DNA of 64,000 nt, taken from NCBI GenBank assembly GCA_913055785.1, contig CAJXLJ010000007.1:1-64000 (forward strand), read 5' to 3'. Numbering within the stretch: the first letter of the stretch is position 1; each line of letters starts with the position of its first letter. Position numbers and translations under genes: made by a program. The notes beneath the pieces were generated by a model. That model was not told the DNA's origin. It was given only the letters and a program-made list of their open reading frames with translations, and did not search any database. Of the stretch, positions 14,197 to 19,517 are shown piece after piece. The DNA comes from an uncultured Parvularculaceae bacterium (lineage in GTDB: Bacteria; Pseudomonadota; Alphaproteobacteria; Caulobacterales; Parvularculaceae).

Positions 14197-15537
14197 ATGA
14201 TTTTCCGGGAAATCGACTGGCGGGAGCCGTTTTCTGCTTTTGCGCCGCTTGCCGGAGAGGCGCATGCGCACCTTCTCCATGCGGGGAATATTGCGCCCGG
14301 ACAATGGTCGACGATCGTCGCTTTCCCCGAAAATCGGATCGAGCTTACGGAAGGGAATGCCGATCGCTGGCTGGTCGAACTCGACGCCGCCATTGCGGCG
14401 CGCGCGTCAGCAGTTGCGGCGCCGACACCGGCGCCGTTTCATTCGGGGCTCGTCGGCTTTGTCGGCTATGAAGCCCTTTCCGCGCTCGAACCTGGGCTTG
14501 ATCTCCCGGCGAGTCCTTATGACCTGCCCGCGGCGTCATTCGGCGTTTACAATGCGGCGGCGGTGTTCTCCCGTGACGAACGGCGCGCCTATGTGGCGGG
14601 CCGGTCCGAAGCGGCGATCCTCCGCCTGCAGGAGGCGTTGGGCGACGGTCCTCATTTCCCGCCGCCGCCGCCGTGTTTTTCCGGGCTGCAGTCGAATTTT
14701 ACTCAATCGGCGTATGAAGGCGCGGTGTCGGCGGTGATTGAGCGCATTCGAAACGGCGAATTTTATCAGGCGAATATTGCGCAGACGATGATGTTGACGA
14801 GCGCACAGCCCTGCCTGCCGCTGGCGCTTTTTGAAGCGGTGGCTTCAAACAGCGACGCGGCTTTCGGCGCGCTCTTGCAATTTGAAAGCGGGGCCGTGAT
14901 TTCGAATTCGCCCGAACGGTTTTTCAAGATCGCGCCTGCGACCGGCGGGCGAAGACGCGTCACCACTGAACCGATCAAAGGTACGCGCAGACGAGGCGAG
15001 GATGCAGTGTCGGATGCGCGCCTCGCTCAGGAGCTGATCGGCGACCCGAAGGACCGGGCGGAAAACATCATGATCGCCGACCTGATGCGCAACGATCTTT
15101 CGAAGGTTTGCGAGGACGGCTCCATCTGTGAAGAAGCGATCTGTGAATTGATGACGCTGTCGAAAGTGCATCATCTCGTGTCGCGCATCAGCGGCGTTTT
15201 GCGCCGCGAGGCGACAATCGCCGATGTTTTTCGGGCGCTCTTTCCGGCCGGATCGATTAGCGGCGCCCCGAAAGTCGCCGCGATGGAAGCGATCGGTGAA
15301 ATCGAAAAAACCGGCCGCGGGCCCTATTGCGGGGCCATCGGCTATATCGACGACCGGGGCGGCGCCGATTTCGCAGTGGCGATCCGCACCATGATGATCG
15401 ATGGCGGCGGGCGAAACGCATCCGTTCCGGTCGGCGGCGGGATCACGCTGCGCTCTAACCCCGCGGCGGAATATGAAGAAACACTCGTCAAGGCGCGCGG
15501 CGTGCTGGATGTTCTTTCGCAAGGCGGCGGCCCGTGA
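14197..15537 (+). CDS. pabB: Aminodeoxychorismate synthase component I
   Basis: A 446-residue chorismate-utilising enzyme that makes 4-amino-4-deoxychorismate with PabA. The diagnostic PIKGT motif (Lys261) marks aminodeoxychorismate synthase rather than anthranilate synthase, which has PLAGT. Other signatures are GEFYQANIAQ, LMRNDLSKVCEDGS and FPAGSISGAPK near the C-terminus. It overlaps pabA by 4 nt (GTGA), indicating coupled translation of the two subunits. It leads a pabB-pabA-pabC-ANL operon for p-aminobenzoate and folate. Confidence 0.93.
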   Translation: MIFREIDWREPFSAFAPLAGEAHAHLLHAGNIAPGQWSTIVAFPENRIELTEGNADRWLVELDAAIAARASAVAAPTPAPFHSGLVGFVGYEALSALEPGLDLPASPYDLPAASFGVYNAAAVFSRDERRAYVAGRSEAAILRLQEALGDGPHFPPPPPCFSGLQSNFTQSAYEGAVSAVIERIRNGEFYQANIAQTMMLTSAQPCLPLALFEAVASNSDAAFGALLQFESGAVISNSPERFFKIAPATGGRRRVTTEPIKGTRRRGEDAVSDARLAQELIGDPKDRAENIMIADLMRNDLSKVCEDGSICEEAICELMTLSKVHHLVSRISGVLRREATIADVFRALFPAGSISGAPKVAAMEAIGEIEKTGRGPYCGAIGYIDDRGGADFAVAIRTMMIDGGGRNASVPVGGGITLRSNPAAEYEETLVKARGVLDVLSQGGGP

Positions 15538-16112
15538 TTCTCATCATCGATAATGTCGATTCCTTTGTGCACAATCTCGCCCGCTATTTCCGTGAGGCGG
15601 GCGCGAAGGTCGAAGTCATACGCAACACCGCCACGGTCGGCGATCTTCTCGCCATGAAGCCAACCGGGGTGGTTGTCTCTCCCGGGCCCAGAACGCCGGC
15701 CGAGGCCGGTGTTTCCATGGCGCTGATTGACGCGCTTCCTCCGCAAACGCCTTATCTCGGTGTTTGCCTAGGTCATCAGTGCCTTGTTGAAAATTTGGGC
15801 GGCGCGACAACCCGCGCAAAGCGTCCTCTCCATGGCGAAGCGAGTTTGGTGCGGCACAATGGGGGCGGACTCTTTCGAGGCGTTCCGTCGCCGGCGTCGG
15901 TGGGGCGCTATCACTCGCTGATATCCGTGCTGCAGAAAAACAGCCCCCTTGTTGCGACTGCCTGGAGCGAGGAAGACGAAGTAATGGCGGTCGCTCATCA
16001 ATCGCGGCCGTGGTTCGGCGTGCAGTTCCACCCTGAATCTCTCTTAACGCCCCATGGCAGGATCATCATCGATAATTTCCTAAATCACTGCGCGGGAGAG
16101 GGGGCGCGATGA
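15534..16112 (+). CDS. pabA: Aminodeoxychorismate synthase component II (glutamine amidotransferase)
   Basis: A 192-residue class I glutamine amidotransferase that supplies ammonia to PabB. The catalytic triad is Cys78 (GVCLGHQ), His166 and Glu168 (FHPES); the oxyanion region is VVSPGPRTP. Translation starts at a GTG overlapping the pabB stop. The pairing with pabB and pabC favours PABA synthesis, although such subunits can be shared with anthranilate synthase. The stop overlaps pabC by 4 nt. Confidence 0.93.
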   Translation: MILIIDNVDSFVHNLARYFREAGAKVEVIRNTATVGDLLAMKPTGVVVSPGPRTPAEAGVSMALIDALPPQTPYLGVCLGHQCLVENLGGATTRAKRPLHGEASLVRHNGGGLFRGVPSPASVGRYHSLISVLQKNSPLVATAWSEEDEVMAVAHQSRPWFGVQFHPESLLTPHGRIIIDNFLNHCAGEGAR

Positions 16113-16957
16113 CGTTCTGGCTCAACGGTGAATGGCGTGAAGAGAAAACGGCGATCAGCATCGCCGACCGCGGATTTTTGCTTGGCGACGGGCTGTTTGA
16201 AACGATCTTCATGAAAAACGGCGCGGCGGCGTTCCTCGATGACCACCTCGCCCGGCTCAGCGCGGGACTTCAAATGCTGGGCATTAACGCGTCGTCGCCG
16301 GGCAACATCGCCGCCATTCTCGCCGAACTGGCGGAACGGAACGGGCTAACCGATAAGGTCGCTGCTGCCCGCATCAGCATGTCGAGAGGCGTATCCGAGC
16401 GCGGCCTCCTGTTCCCCGAAGGGAGCGATCCGACGGTGTTGATCACTGCCTCGCCCGCCGCCATCGCCGGCGGTTCCGCCGCGTTGATTGTCAGCGCCTA
16501 TAGGCGATCGCAGCATAGCGTCGCCGCGCGCTGCAAGGCGTCCGCCTATCTCGACAATGTTCTCGCCCGCAACGAGGCCCGAGATAGGAGCGTTGACGAA
16601 GCGATCATGCTCAACGGCGAAGGCCGCGTCGCCTGTGCGTCAAGCGCCAATCTCTTTTTGATCCTGAAAGACGGTTCAGTCGTTACGCCGCCGGTCGGGG
16701 AAGGCGCCCTGCCGGGTATTATCCGCGGGATGTTGCTCGCCGCCGCGCCGGAAATCGGCGCTGAGATTCGCGAAGACGCGATACGCCTCGATGATTTGCG
16801 GCGAGGCGCGCTTTTTCTGACCAACAGCCTGATCGGTCTCAGGCCGGCGTTTCTGCAGGGTGAAAAGCCGCCGGCCAGTGAATTATTCATTCGCTTGTCC
16901 GCATGGTATGAAAACCGCCTCGCCGATTCGCTCCGGGAAGGGTCGTCGCGCCTGTGA
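16109..16957 (+). CDS. pabC: Aminodeoxychorismate lyase (class IV PLP enzyme)
   Basis: A 282-residue fold-type IV PLP enzyme that splits 4-amino-4-deoxychorismate into p-aminobenzoate and pyruvate. It has SIADRGFLLGDGLFET near the N-terminus, the PLP-binding lysine in RCKASAYLDNVLARNEA (Lys143), the EAIMLNGEGRVACASSANLF stretch and GALPGIIRGMLL. Branched-chain aminotransferases share this fold, but the position directly after pabB and pabA decides the call. It overlaps the next gene by 4 nt (GTGA). Confidence 0.9.
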   Translation: MTFWLNGEWREEKTAISIADRGFLLGDGLFETIFMKNGAAAFLDDHLARLSAGLQMLGINASSPGNIAAILAELAERNGLTDKVAAARISMSRGVSERGLLFPEGSDPTVLITASPAAIAGGSAALIVSAYRRSQHSVAARCKASAYLDNVLARNEARDRSVDEAIMLNGEGRVACASSANLFLILKDGSVVTPPVGEGALPGIIRGMLLAAAPEIGAEIREDAIRLDDLRRGALFLTNSLIGLRPAFLQGEKPPASELFIRLSAWYENRLADSLREGSSRL

Positions 16958-18132
16958 AGTCGTTCGTCATTCCAGAAGATCAGGTCGCCAGGGTGATCGG
17001 TGCGGCGCTTGCTGACGAGGCGGCTCGCAGCTTCAACCGGCATTTCGATTTTCTCACGATTGCGTCCTGGTCCGGCGATACGCCGCTCGGAGAAGGCGGC
17101 GTTGCGCTGTCGCCGGATGAAATCAAAATCTGCGGCGTGCGGGTCGCGGAATTCTTCGGTCAGCCGCGCGATCTGCTTGAAGGCGCAGCTTCAGCGCGCA
17201 TCGCCGACTGGGCGGCGGTCGTCGCCGATGCGATAGGAGCGAAGCTCGAGCATTTCACCTTCAAGTCCGCGGCGCGGGATGAAAGAAATGCTGTTTGCCG
17301 TCATCGCGCTGATGAAATTTTTCAGGACGCGGCGGCGGCGGCGAATATTTTGCACGGAAGACGTCGGCTTTTGTCGTTTGTCGCGCCGCACAGCCTGTTG
17401 GGTTTTGAACTCTCCATTCTGACGCCGAATCTGCAAGGCATTGAGTCGATTGACGTGCGCGGCATGCCTCCGGAACAGCTCTCAAAATCCTTGAGCTATG
17501 GCGATGTCCTGGTCGCAACGCCGACTTTGTGGCGTTACATGATGCGGGAAAAGCTGACGGCGCCCGACAACACCATGGCTGTCGCTTTTGGTGAATCGAT
17601 GACGCCAGAACTCGCCGCCCAGATGCGCACCGCCGGTTTCGGGGTCCTCCGCGAACTCTACGGCTCAACGGAAACGGGCCTCATCGGCTGGCGCGATACG
17701 CCGGGCGAACATTTTGTCCTGTTCGATCATTGGCGCGGCGGGGACGGCTTAAAGCGCGTCGGGCCGGGCGGCGTTGAGCGCGATGTCGATGCGATGGATT
17801 TTATCGAGTGGCGGGATGAGCGTTCATTCGGTCTTGGCGGGCGGCGGGATGGCGCGGTGCAGATCGGCGCCGTCAATGTCATTCCCGACGACGTTGCGCG
17901 GCGCCTGTGCGAGCATCCTCTGATCGCAGACTGCGCCGTAAAGGTCGGACGCCGCGGCGATGGCGTTGACAGGCTGATCGCCCACATCGTTCTGAACAAG
18001 GGGCGCCAGCCCGACGACCGTACGGCGCGAGAAATCGACGCCTGGTGCCGCACCACGCTTCGCCAGCAGGAGCGGCCGCGCATCTATCATTTTGAAAAAT
18101 CGCTTGGCGCAAAAGAAAAGGGCGCCGGCTGA
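16954..18132 (+). CDS. Adenylate-forming enzyme homologue (AMP-binding/ANL-like), possibly degenerate
   Basis: A 392-residue protein starting at a GTG that overlaps the pabC stop. The A5 motif LYGSTETG (235-242) and the fold around FVAPHSLLGFELSILTPNLQG resemble aryl-acid-activating members of the ANL superfamily (4-coumarate-CoA-ligase-like). At ~500-600 residues most relatives are longer. The usual Ser/Thr/Gly-rich P-loop (TSGTTGxPK) is replaced by FKSAARDERNAVCRHR (103-118), so ATP chemistry may be impaired or altered. A possible A10-like lysine lies in GAKEKG near the C-terminus. Coupling to pab genes suggests a link with p-aminobenzoate or another chorismate-derived acid, which is inference. 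A hairpin terminator spans its stop codon. Confidence 0.65.
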   Translation: MKSFVIPEDQVARVIGAALADEAARSFNRHFDFLTIASWSGDTPLGEGGVALSPDEIKICGVRVAEFFGQPRDLLEGAASARIADWAAVVADAIGAKLEHFTFKSAARDERNAVCRHRADEIFQDAAAAANILHGRRRLLSFVAPHSLLGFELSILTPNLQGIESIDVRGMPPEQLSKSLSYGDVLVATPTLWRYMMREKLTAPDNTMAVAFGESMTPELAAQMRTAGFGVLRELYGSTETGLIGWRDTPGEHFVLFDHWRGGDGLKRVGPGGVERDVDAMDFIEWRDERSFGLGGRRDGAVQIGAVNVIPDDVARRLCEHPLIADCAVKVGRRGDGVDRLIAHIVLNKGRQPDDRTAREIDAWCRTTLRQQERPRIYHFEKSLGAKEKGAG

Positions 18133-18163: not shown

Positions 18164-18613
18164 TTATTCGCCGGAGCTGTTAGCGGCGTTCTTCGCTTGG
18201 CTGAATTTCTTCGTGACCTGGCTTGAAACGTTTTCAAAGGATTCGCTGTCGTCTCCGACCGTAATCGTCTCATCGCACTTCGTCGTGCAATTATAGGTCG
18301 TGCGCGCCGCGCCGCGGTAGAAAGTCAGCACGCCGTCATGTTGCGTGCGAACGCGGACAATCAGATTCTCAATCGCCTCGCCGGACTCATCGAAGATATA
18401 GATATTCGTCAACCCCGGCGCCTTGCCGAAAAGGAGAAGGCTTTTGTTGTCCTGCACCGTTACATCTGCGATCGCAGGGTTGCCGACGACGATATTCTGG
18501 GCAGGGCGCTCGAGTTTGTAGGGGCGAACCTGGTCCATGGTCAGCCAGACCTGACCGGCGTGAGCGCCAGTCGTCAGCATAAAGAGCGTTGCGAAAGCGG
18601 AAATGAGAACGCG
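18164..18613 (-). CDS. Stand-alone pilus-assembly (secretin) N-terminal-domain protein
   Basis: A 149-residue secreted protein with signal peptide MRVLISAFATLFMLTTGAHA. The next ~75 residues (YKLERPAQNIVVGNPAIADVTV...KSLLLFGKAPGLTNIYIFDESGE) match the N-terminal domain found before the secretin barrel in CpaC/RcpA; compare CpaC at 21333, residues ~55-110. There is no secretin domain here. The C-terminal tail holds two cysteines (YNCTTKC) and a charged end. The ATG at 18613 was preferred because AAGGAC lies 7-12 nt upstream. It is divergent from the Crp/Fnr regulator and beside the pilus locus, so it is probably a periplasmic accessory. Confidence 0.75.
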   Translation of the reverse strand, partial: RVLISAFATLFMLTTGAHAGQVWLTMDQVRPYKLERPAQNIVVGNPAIADVTVQDNKSLLLFGKAPGLTNIYIFDESGEAIENLIVRVRTQHDGVLTFYRGAARTTYNCTTKCDETITVGDDSESFENVSSQVTKKFSQAKNAANSSGE

Positions 18614-18722
18614 CATGGGACATGTCCTTGTAAAATTCATCACCGCCGAACATAGACTTTAGGAGTCAATGATCTGTTAAAACCCTTGGGGGGATTGCGG
18701 TTTTCCCGGGATATTTAACATA

Positions 18723-18736: not shown

Positions 18737-18794
18737 CCTTAAATCGATTTTGATATTTCTTACCGGCTGGTGGAGATACCGCAACCGAGCTGCC

Positions 18795-19517
18795 ATGTCC
18801 GCAACGCCTGTCGTAATCGTCGAACCTGAAGAAGAGCTTGCGCCCATGCTGGCGAAGTCTCCGCTTTTTCGCGACCTGCCGGATGCGGTCATCAGCGCGG
18901 TCTGCGAAAGCAGCGAGCGCCGTTGCTACAGCGCAGGCCAGACCGTCTATTCCATGGGGCAATATGACGGCGTTGAGTTCTTTGTCGTCCTTTCGGGCCG
19001 GATGCGAACATCCCTGGTCGACCGCGACGCAGGATCAATAATTATCGAGGAGTACGTCCCGGGCGGTGTTTTCGCCATGGAGCTGGTTTTTGGCGGCGCG
19101 GGGCCTGAGGTTTTTCAATGCATATCGGTGACGGCCGAGGACGATCTTGTACTCGCCGCCATCGATGGAGAGGCGTTCCGCACTCTGGCGGCGTCCCGTC
19201 CGACCTTGATGCGTAATATTGCGGGGCGTCTGGCCAGCGAGCTGACAGAGCGACGTTTCCACAGCGCAACGCCGGAATCGGCCCCGGAACAGCGTGTGTT
19301 CGCCGCGCTCTTGAAATTCGTCGAGCGCGATTACGAATCTGGCGAGTGGCGCGTGCCGCGTATGCCTAAACATCGCGAGCTTGCGGATGAAGCCGGCGTT
19401 GAAGAAAGCGTTACGGCGAGTGCAGTCGCCATGCTTATTCAGGAAGGTGTTGCGCGCCGTGACTATCCAGGGTTGTTGATCAACGACATGAGTCGGTTAA
19501 ATCAGCTCGCTAGTTAG
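18795..19517 (+). CDS. Crp/Fnr family transcriptional regulator
   Basis: A 240-residue protein from the ATG at 18795. A cyclic-nucleotide-binding-like beta-roll covers ~20-140 (SAGQTVYSMGQYDGVEFFVVLSGRMRTSL, YVPGGVFAMELVFGG) and a C-terminal helical region ~165-235 contains HRELADEAGVEESVTASAVAMLIQEGVARRD in the winged-helix position. The FNR iron-sulfur cysteines are absent, so it is not an oxygen sensor of that type. It lies just before the Flp pilin gene and probably influences pilus expression, which is inference. An alternative ATG lies at 18750. Confidence 0.8.
   Translation: MSATPVVIVEPEEELAPMLAKSPLFRDLPDAVISAVCESSERRCYSAGQTVYSMGQYDGVEFFVVLSGRMRTSLVDRDAGSIIIEEYVPGGVFAMELVFGGAGPEVFQCISVTAEDDLVLAAIDGEAFRTLAASRPTLMRNIAGRLASELTERRFHSATPESAPEQRVFAALLKFVERDYESGEWRVPRMPKHRELADEAGVEESVTASAVAMLIQEGVARRDYPGLLINDMSRLNQLAS

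Follow-up and report, generated by a model that had tools for sequence, protein, structure and literature searches.

In the window, by which we mean the whole stretch of 64,000 nucleotides that was analysed, the pabB-pabA-pabC genes of an uncultured Parvularculaceae bacterium are followed by a gene for an ANL-fold protein related to the 4-coumarate:CoA ligases of the photoactive yellow protein (PYP) pathway, enzymes for the pigment of a light sensor; catalytic motifs of these ligases have been lost in it. The explanation to which we give about half of our confidence is that this protein is a lineage-specific pseudo-ligase, whose gene became the last of the pab operon in the Parvularculaceae ancestor; it would have lost its parts for ligation and been retained because it binds something. 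The observations behind it are the relationship to the ligases, the predicted fold, the losses and gains of motifs, purifying selection, the coupling to the operon and the persistence of the gene after the loss of pab.

Location of the gene

The genes of the region are the following:

14197..15537, + strand: pabB, aminodeoxychorismate synthase component I, by model match
15534..16112, + strand: pabA, glutamine amidotransferase subunit, with a 4-nt overlap with pabB
16109..16957, + strand: pabC, class-IV aminotransferase / ADC lyase relative, with 4-nt overlaps on both sides
16954..18132, + strand: pseudo-ligase gene, encoding a 392-aa ANL-fold protein, relative of the PYP-type 4-coumarate:CoA ligase, with catalytic motifs lost
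18164..18643, - strand: convergent small gene "cpaN", Pfam T2SS-T3SS_pil_N, a frequent neighbour
18750..19517, + strand: Crp-like gene, cNMP_binding, with an HTH match below cut-off

The pseudo-ligase ORF is intact, starts with GTG and runs for 392 codons, the sequence GTGA being common to its start codon and the stop of pabC; the pabB/pabA, pabA/pabC and pabC/pseudo-ligase junctions are each a 4-nt overlap. The three upstream genes matched models for aminodeoxychorismate synthase I and II and for class-IV aminotransferase/ADC lyase, with the equivalog scores of pabB and pabC falling below the model cut-offs. As the only other chorismate-binding match in the genome is TrpE-like (35% identity, the typing being by identity), these genes appear to be the folate pab set. 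Between the operon and the Crp-like gene, cpaN (18164-18643, - strand) heads a cpa (pilus) region, an arrangement found at 52 of 56 loci.

Family and predicted fold

The best NCBIfam model for the window protein was TIGR02372, the PYP pathway 4-coumarate:CoA ligase, matched over the full length with an E-value of 9.3e-51 and 172.7 bits, short of the curated cut-off of 334.7; a PYP-linked relative (L124) scored 355.4 bits on the same model. Pfam recognised no more than the C-terminal domain and, at a score below the AMP-binding cut-off, the stretch around A5. Structure alignments A2 and A3 comprised 59 and 31 of the available sequences, respectively, and all 31 members of A3, including 4 pseudo-ligases, matched TIGR02372 at E <= 1e-20. 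Given the full-length match at E 9.3e-51 and the conservation across the family, the ANL match is not due to chance. The matches of the A3 members and the trees described below indicate that the pseudo-ligase shares common ancestry with the TIGR02372 ligases. These specific relatives, the PYP-chromophore ligases, were missed in the preliminary description of the region.

The structure of the window protein was predicted with confidence (pLDDT 93.4, pTM 0.90), and the model shows the two domains of an ANL fold, in which A5, A7 and A8 are present. The strand-loop-strand that bears the P-loop in ligases is kept in the predicted model, and its loop (105-113) is equal in length to that of the ligase model (113-121). 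The best Foldseek match was the benzoate-CoA ligase 4rm3 (E 3e-16, TMq 0.59), and VIA gave Z values of 17.4-20.4 across the 50 entries listed, plant 4-coumarate:CoA ligase included (3a9v; Z 18.4, rmsd 4.3, 352 aligned). The fold is thus that of the class I ANL aryl-acid:CoA ligases for benzoate, 4-chlorobenzoate and plant 4-coumarate, although identity to them was 11-20% among the matches listed and the motifs of both half-reactions are missing or changed in the window protein. Of the two comparisons proposed at the outset, that with 4-coumarate:CoA ligase supported the ANL fold; EhpF was not named among the sequence and structure matches listed, and no literature joining the subjects of the search was found. 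EhpF-type proteins are short ANL homologues that may resemble the window protein.

Distribution and linkage to PYP

The named relatives place the organism in the family Parvularculaceae, in a genus near Marinicaulis. When 100 related genomes were searched, matches were present in 59 of the 60 Parvularculaceae genomes; G043 had none, and G005, G014 and G034 had pieces only. The other 40 genomes, from four further families of the order, gave weak generic matches only (best E 2.5e-7). A search of 385 genomes of the class gave matches at E <= 1e-30 in six, the organism's own not counted. To these 6 were added 23 named loci outside the family (L111-L133); the named loci, 78 in number, stand for the best 80 of 115 places confirmed. 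Within this set, the relatives outside the family carry the P-loop and are 26-35% identical to the pseudo-ligase, and a PYP-like match lay near 26 of the 29, with 12 of these 26 showing only 24-35% identity; no PYP-like match was found near L118, L133 and L137 in the DNA examined.

In the Parvularculaceae, a PYP match over the cut-off was found in 1 of 62 genomes (G059), adjoining a different ANL copy, and two further matches were weak, below the cut-off and in long frames. G059 holds both types of gene: the copy linked to pab (L040/L097) lacks the P-loop, and near PYP and GvpL/GvpF genes lies a ligase (L039) whose P-loop reads SGTTGRPKK. This rare PYP cluster in the family (L039:6891-9492) belongs to Parvularculaceae DT_81, as named from the pab locus L097, and none of the three reading frames gives its ligase a C-terminal A10 Lys tail. 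PMC3646047 reports PYP near gas-vesicle genes in Rhodobacter capsulatus and in a strain of Loktanella, and our literature search returned no report of PYP in Parvularculaceae. A PYP chromophore function in the window organism was rejected, as its own genome has no PYP match.

Coupling to the pab genes and its loss

The overlap with pabC is not peculiar to the window. With starts assigned by homology, the distance from pabC to the gene was -4 nt in 34 of 48 loci and between -4 and +13 nt in 47, the 48th (L110) being an interrupted copy. At this locus (Parvularcula sp. UBA11161, 6001-7398), the pseudo-ligase gene and pabB are each split in two by a few hundred additional bases, for which assembly error, insertion or decay are possible causes. 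Where room allowed (56 loci), the neighbours were pabC in 48/53, cpaN in 52/56, Crp in 51/56, cpaA in 48/53 and AI-2E in 41/49, the "pabA" counted at L058 being a remnant. Conservation extends to AI-2E, Crp and the cpa genes, so that part of this synteny reflects a conserved chromosomal region.

The pseudo-ligase gene does not accompany the genes of pABA synthesis throughout. In 4 of the 51 scored tree rows pabBAC is absent beside an intact ANL gene, which needs four changes, a number stable between trees (L083 and L098 were unscored for pab loss, and L051 is outside the tree). At L061, L074 and L096 the gene directly follows AI-2E and pabBAC is gone, at L051 it stands by cpa genes without pab, and in Marinicaulis sp. 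OFTM304 (G011; L058:4000-4457) a scar of roughly 450 bp keeps remnants of pabB, pabA and pabC next to the intact ANL ORF. Crp and cpaN remain at all five of these loci.

The pab genes found elsewhere in such genomes differed. G020 and G037 each had a single chorismate-binding match, typed TrpE, and no PabB; that of G011 was also single, with a TrpE-like identity of 35% (again typed by identity). In G012 a PabB over the cut-off is encoded elsewhere in the genome, and in G046 a PabB-type gene (314.8 bits, cut-off 328.4) and a PabC-type gene are; in both, the ANL gene stays behind. The G046 genes form a divergent pabB-pabC pair (L150/L161, C1 about 2310672-2312812), with the pseudo-ligase gene still by the cpa genes, an apparent replacement of the ancestral pab operon. 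In Amphiplicatus (L083/G039), pabC is beside the gene and pabB elsewhere. DHPS was over the cut-off in 9 of the 9 genomes examined. The UbiC-type chorismate lyase (PF04345), considered as a sign of how 4-hydroxybenzoate is supplied for ubiquinone, did not discriminate: it was absent from 10 of 10 Parvularculaceae genomes, with or without pab and with that of the window organism included, and among 14 controls was found in E. coli only.

A single Parvularcula clade (L097, L099, L100 and L101) points back to a link with pab, as pabBAC and the gene are together there, and LysR, AI-2E, cpaN, Crp and cpaA were not found nearby. As the preliminary description had it, then, the gene is closely coupled to pabC, and the survey of neighbourhoods upheld this linkage; the losses of pabBAC contradict constant company of the pab genes and weaken the case for dedication to the pABA enzymes. 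The further idea of dedication to a chorismate-derived acid is not established.

The same data bear on whether the protein could be an accessory of pABA synthesis, binding pABA or ADC from PabABC as a carrier, channel or feedback sensor at a fixed translation ratio. We regard this as a tentative alternative. Like coumarate, pABA is an aryl acid with a para substituent, and this, the -4 nt spacing, the Parvularcula clade in which operon and gene stay together without their other neighbours, and the retention of DHPS in pab-less genomes, which would need imported pABA, all speak for it. However, the gene survives the loss of pabBAC on four branches, once beside a scar, and part of the synteny is regional. 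Although it overlaps pabC, in a genome whose sole pabB-type gene besides the TrpE-like match is that of the operon, the pseudo-ligase gene outlives pabBAC, unlike a fixed component of a PabABC operon. We know of no ANL component of pABA synthesis, and none was named in the titles and abstract starts of the papers listed on pab plus AMP-binding and on Parvularcula plus folate.

Loss and retention of motifs

The motifs of 53 family proteins were aligned with those of 30 PYP-type ligases (29 distinct ones, L116 and L135 being identical); the partial or interrupted copies L080, L084 and L110 were left out of the alignment and the trees. The alignment located the following elements in the window protein:

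17260..17307, + strand: eroded P-loop region (A3), residues 103-118
17380..17403, + strand: A4 region VAPHSLLG, residues 143-150
17587..17595, + strand: FGE, residues 212-214, replacing STA of the PYP ligases
17656..17679, + strand: A5 motif LYGSTETG, residues 235-242, retained
17797..17799, + strand: Asp282, which we take to be the A7 position, conserved in both groups
17839..17880, + strand: A8 hinge GRRDGAVQIGAVNV, residues 296-309, kept except for the canonical Gly, which is Ala306
18094..18132, + strand: C-terminal end, residues 381-392 and stop, with the A10 Lys absent

Residues 103-118 read FKSAARDERNAVCRHR, where PYP-type ligases have TSG(S/T)TGxPK. The P-loop (T)SG(S/T)TG was present in 0 of the 53 family proteins and 30 of the 30 ligases, and its loop (105-113) is variable in the family, with a mean entropy of 2.24 bits vs 0.73 in the ligases. 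No such pattern was found at any other position of the window protein, nor in any of the 52 further family members tested. The A10 Lys tail (GKxxDW), into which intact ligases continue where the family proteins stop, was likewise missing from all 53 and present in 29 of the 30 ligases. Because the exception is the PYP-adjacent ligase L039, loss of this tail alone is not diagnostic. A stray GK within the last 40 residues of L073 and L089 lies outside the A10 motif, and no Lys occupies the A10 column. In A4, the first His (H146) is kept in both groups, whereas the second His of HHIYG, presumably the canonical A4 His, was found in 30/30 ligases and 0/53 family proteins; the window protein has S147 there, and L149 in place of the Tyr. 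The A8 Gly, its canonical position taken from the alignment to 3etc, is present in 30/30 ligases and in 3/53 family proteins, with Ala in 50/53.

Other positions were retained or newly fixed. Among those conserved in at least 90% of both groups are H117, R138, H146, Y236, G237, E240, D282, R297, D299, Q303 and N308, and A5 and A8 are tighter in the family than in true ligases (0.35 vs 0.74 bits of entropy for A5, 0.25 vs 0.43 for A8), with the A7 Asp and A8 Arg retained as well. New invariant residues of the family are N206, G213, E214, R233 and T239; G213 and E214, of the FGE, occur in 53/53 family proteins, and in the ANL enzymes 8biq and 3etc GEP aligns at this place. Judged from these residues, the adenosine site looks intact.

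The roles of the P-loop, the conserved Lys and the A8 Gly in ANL enzymes are set out in PMC6122825. With these three elements missing or changed, the protein should be unable to adenylate and may be unable to form thioesters, although residual or altered chemistry is conceivable; at A8, the mutation published is Gly to Leu, and the Gly to Ala change of the family is milder. The earlier view of an ANL fold with an eroded P-loop and a retained A5 agrees with the alignment and the predicted structure. No P-loop turned up elsewhere in the 53 proteins, and homologues with an intact SGTTG loop and unrelated neighbours appeared only outside the family, at 26-35% identity among the best 80 of the 115 places. 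That the protein is non-canonical and probably non-adenylating is reinforced by the loss of further catalytic positions.

The retained site might alternatively serve an active enzyme of another chemistry, which would hydrolyse or transfer a preformed aryl-adenylate or an adenosine-linked substrate bound by A5, A7 and A8. The stronger conservation of A5 and A8 than in ligases would suit such an enzyme, and N206, G213, E214, R233 and T239 could serve binding or catalysis. No new catalytic-looking set of residues was recognised, however, the family has lost both the second A4 His and the A8 Gly, and we know of no ANL enzyme that hydrolyses or transfers preformed adenylates in this way. We consider this reading distinctly unlikely.

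Chromosomal context, descent and selection

The constancy of the flanking genes raises a function tied to the Crp-like regulator or the pilus (cpa) genes instead of pab. Crp and cpaN are present at 51 and 52 of the 56 loci and at the five without pabBAC; yet at L097, L099, L100 and L101 the gene persists where neither neighbour was found nearby, the synteny is mostly regional, and a convergent gene separates the pseudo-ligase gene from Crp, all of which makes such a function very improbable.

In trees for which five generic ligases of the window organism served as outgroup, all 53 proteins of the family fell into one clade (100/100), as did the outgroup (100/100). The PYP-type ligases were not one clade in the best tree, so that the family protein arises among them; the topology was the same with L039 left out. 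As a single clade of PYP-type ligases was recovered in 31% of the bootstrap trees, or 44% without L039, descent of the pseudo-ligase from a PYP-type ligase is favoured by the sequences, not proved.

In 22 hand-picked pairs, several with saturated dS values, the dN/dS of the pseudo-ligase gene was 0.02-0.26 in the 18 where it was defined; it was below that of pabC in 14/14 pairs, of pabB in 10/12 and of pabA in 7/13. These values argue for a domesticated pseudo-ligase and not for decay. Slow decay of an operon passenger, for which the loss of P-loop, A10 and other catalytic elements and the interrupted L110 copy could be cited, is hardly credible against this dN/dS, the matches in 59/60 genomes, the many new invariant residues and the retention of the gene when pab is lost.

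Discussion

The pseudo-ligase resembles the TIGR02372 ligases in its full-length homology, its short ANL architecture (384-447 aa among the 30 ligases), A5, the A7 Asp and the A8 Arg. It differs from them in scoring below the cut-off, in lacking the P-loop, the second A4 His and the A10 Lys tail, in the Gly to Ala change (50/53), and in following pabC in a family where PYP passes the cut-off in 1/62 genomes. The gene was undescribed in the titles and abstract starts of the papers listed on pab plus AMP-binding, Parvularcula or Marinicaulis plus folate or aminobenzoate, and PYP plus ligase or lyase; a search for inactive ANL proteins found no report, the literature on pseudoenzymes plus adenylate-forming enzymes being unrelated.

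Under our preferred explanation of a pseudo-ligase kept for binding, a gene from the lineage of PYP-type 4-coumarate:CoA ligases would have come to lie last after pabB, pabA and pabC in the Parvularculaceae ancestor. Loss of the P-loop and the A10 Lys would have abolished carboxylate adenylation, and the A8 Gly to Ala change possibly thioester formation. The preserved A5/A7/A8 site would bind AMP, an aryl-adenylate or another adenosine-containing ligand, a small aryl acid, for example pABA, may also occupy the remodelled pocket, and binding may shift the C-terminal domain and so regulate a partner. Because the pseudo-ligase outlives pabBAC, PabABC itself is an improbable partner. With DHPS kept, a function in pABA/folate homeostasis at a step after supply would fit better, as would a wider one in aromatic or energy sensing.

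On the residues conserved, the pseudo-ligase most likely binds AMP or an aryl-adenylate and serves in regulation or as a partner protein. More speculatively, and with rather low confidence, we suggest that it is an ANL pseudoenzyme in primary metabolism, a ligase for a light-receptor pigment that would have become a core regulatory protein and dedicated adenylate or aryl-acid sensor, which would link pABA/folate status or AMP to a partner and be kept in descendants without pABA synthesis. For annotation, caution is advised, as the protein looks like a 4-coumarate:CoA ligase and should not act as one. An adenylating enzyme without its reaction machinery, with more conserved nucleotide-site motifs, has become fixed across a family of marine bacteria. 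Identifying what it binds would show by what route ANL folds become sensors or partners, and might uncover an unrecognised control point in pABA/folate metabolism.
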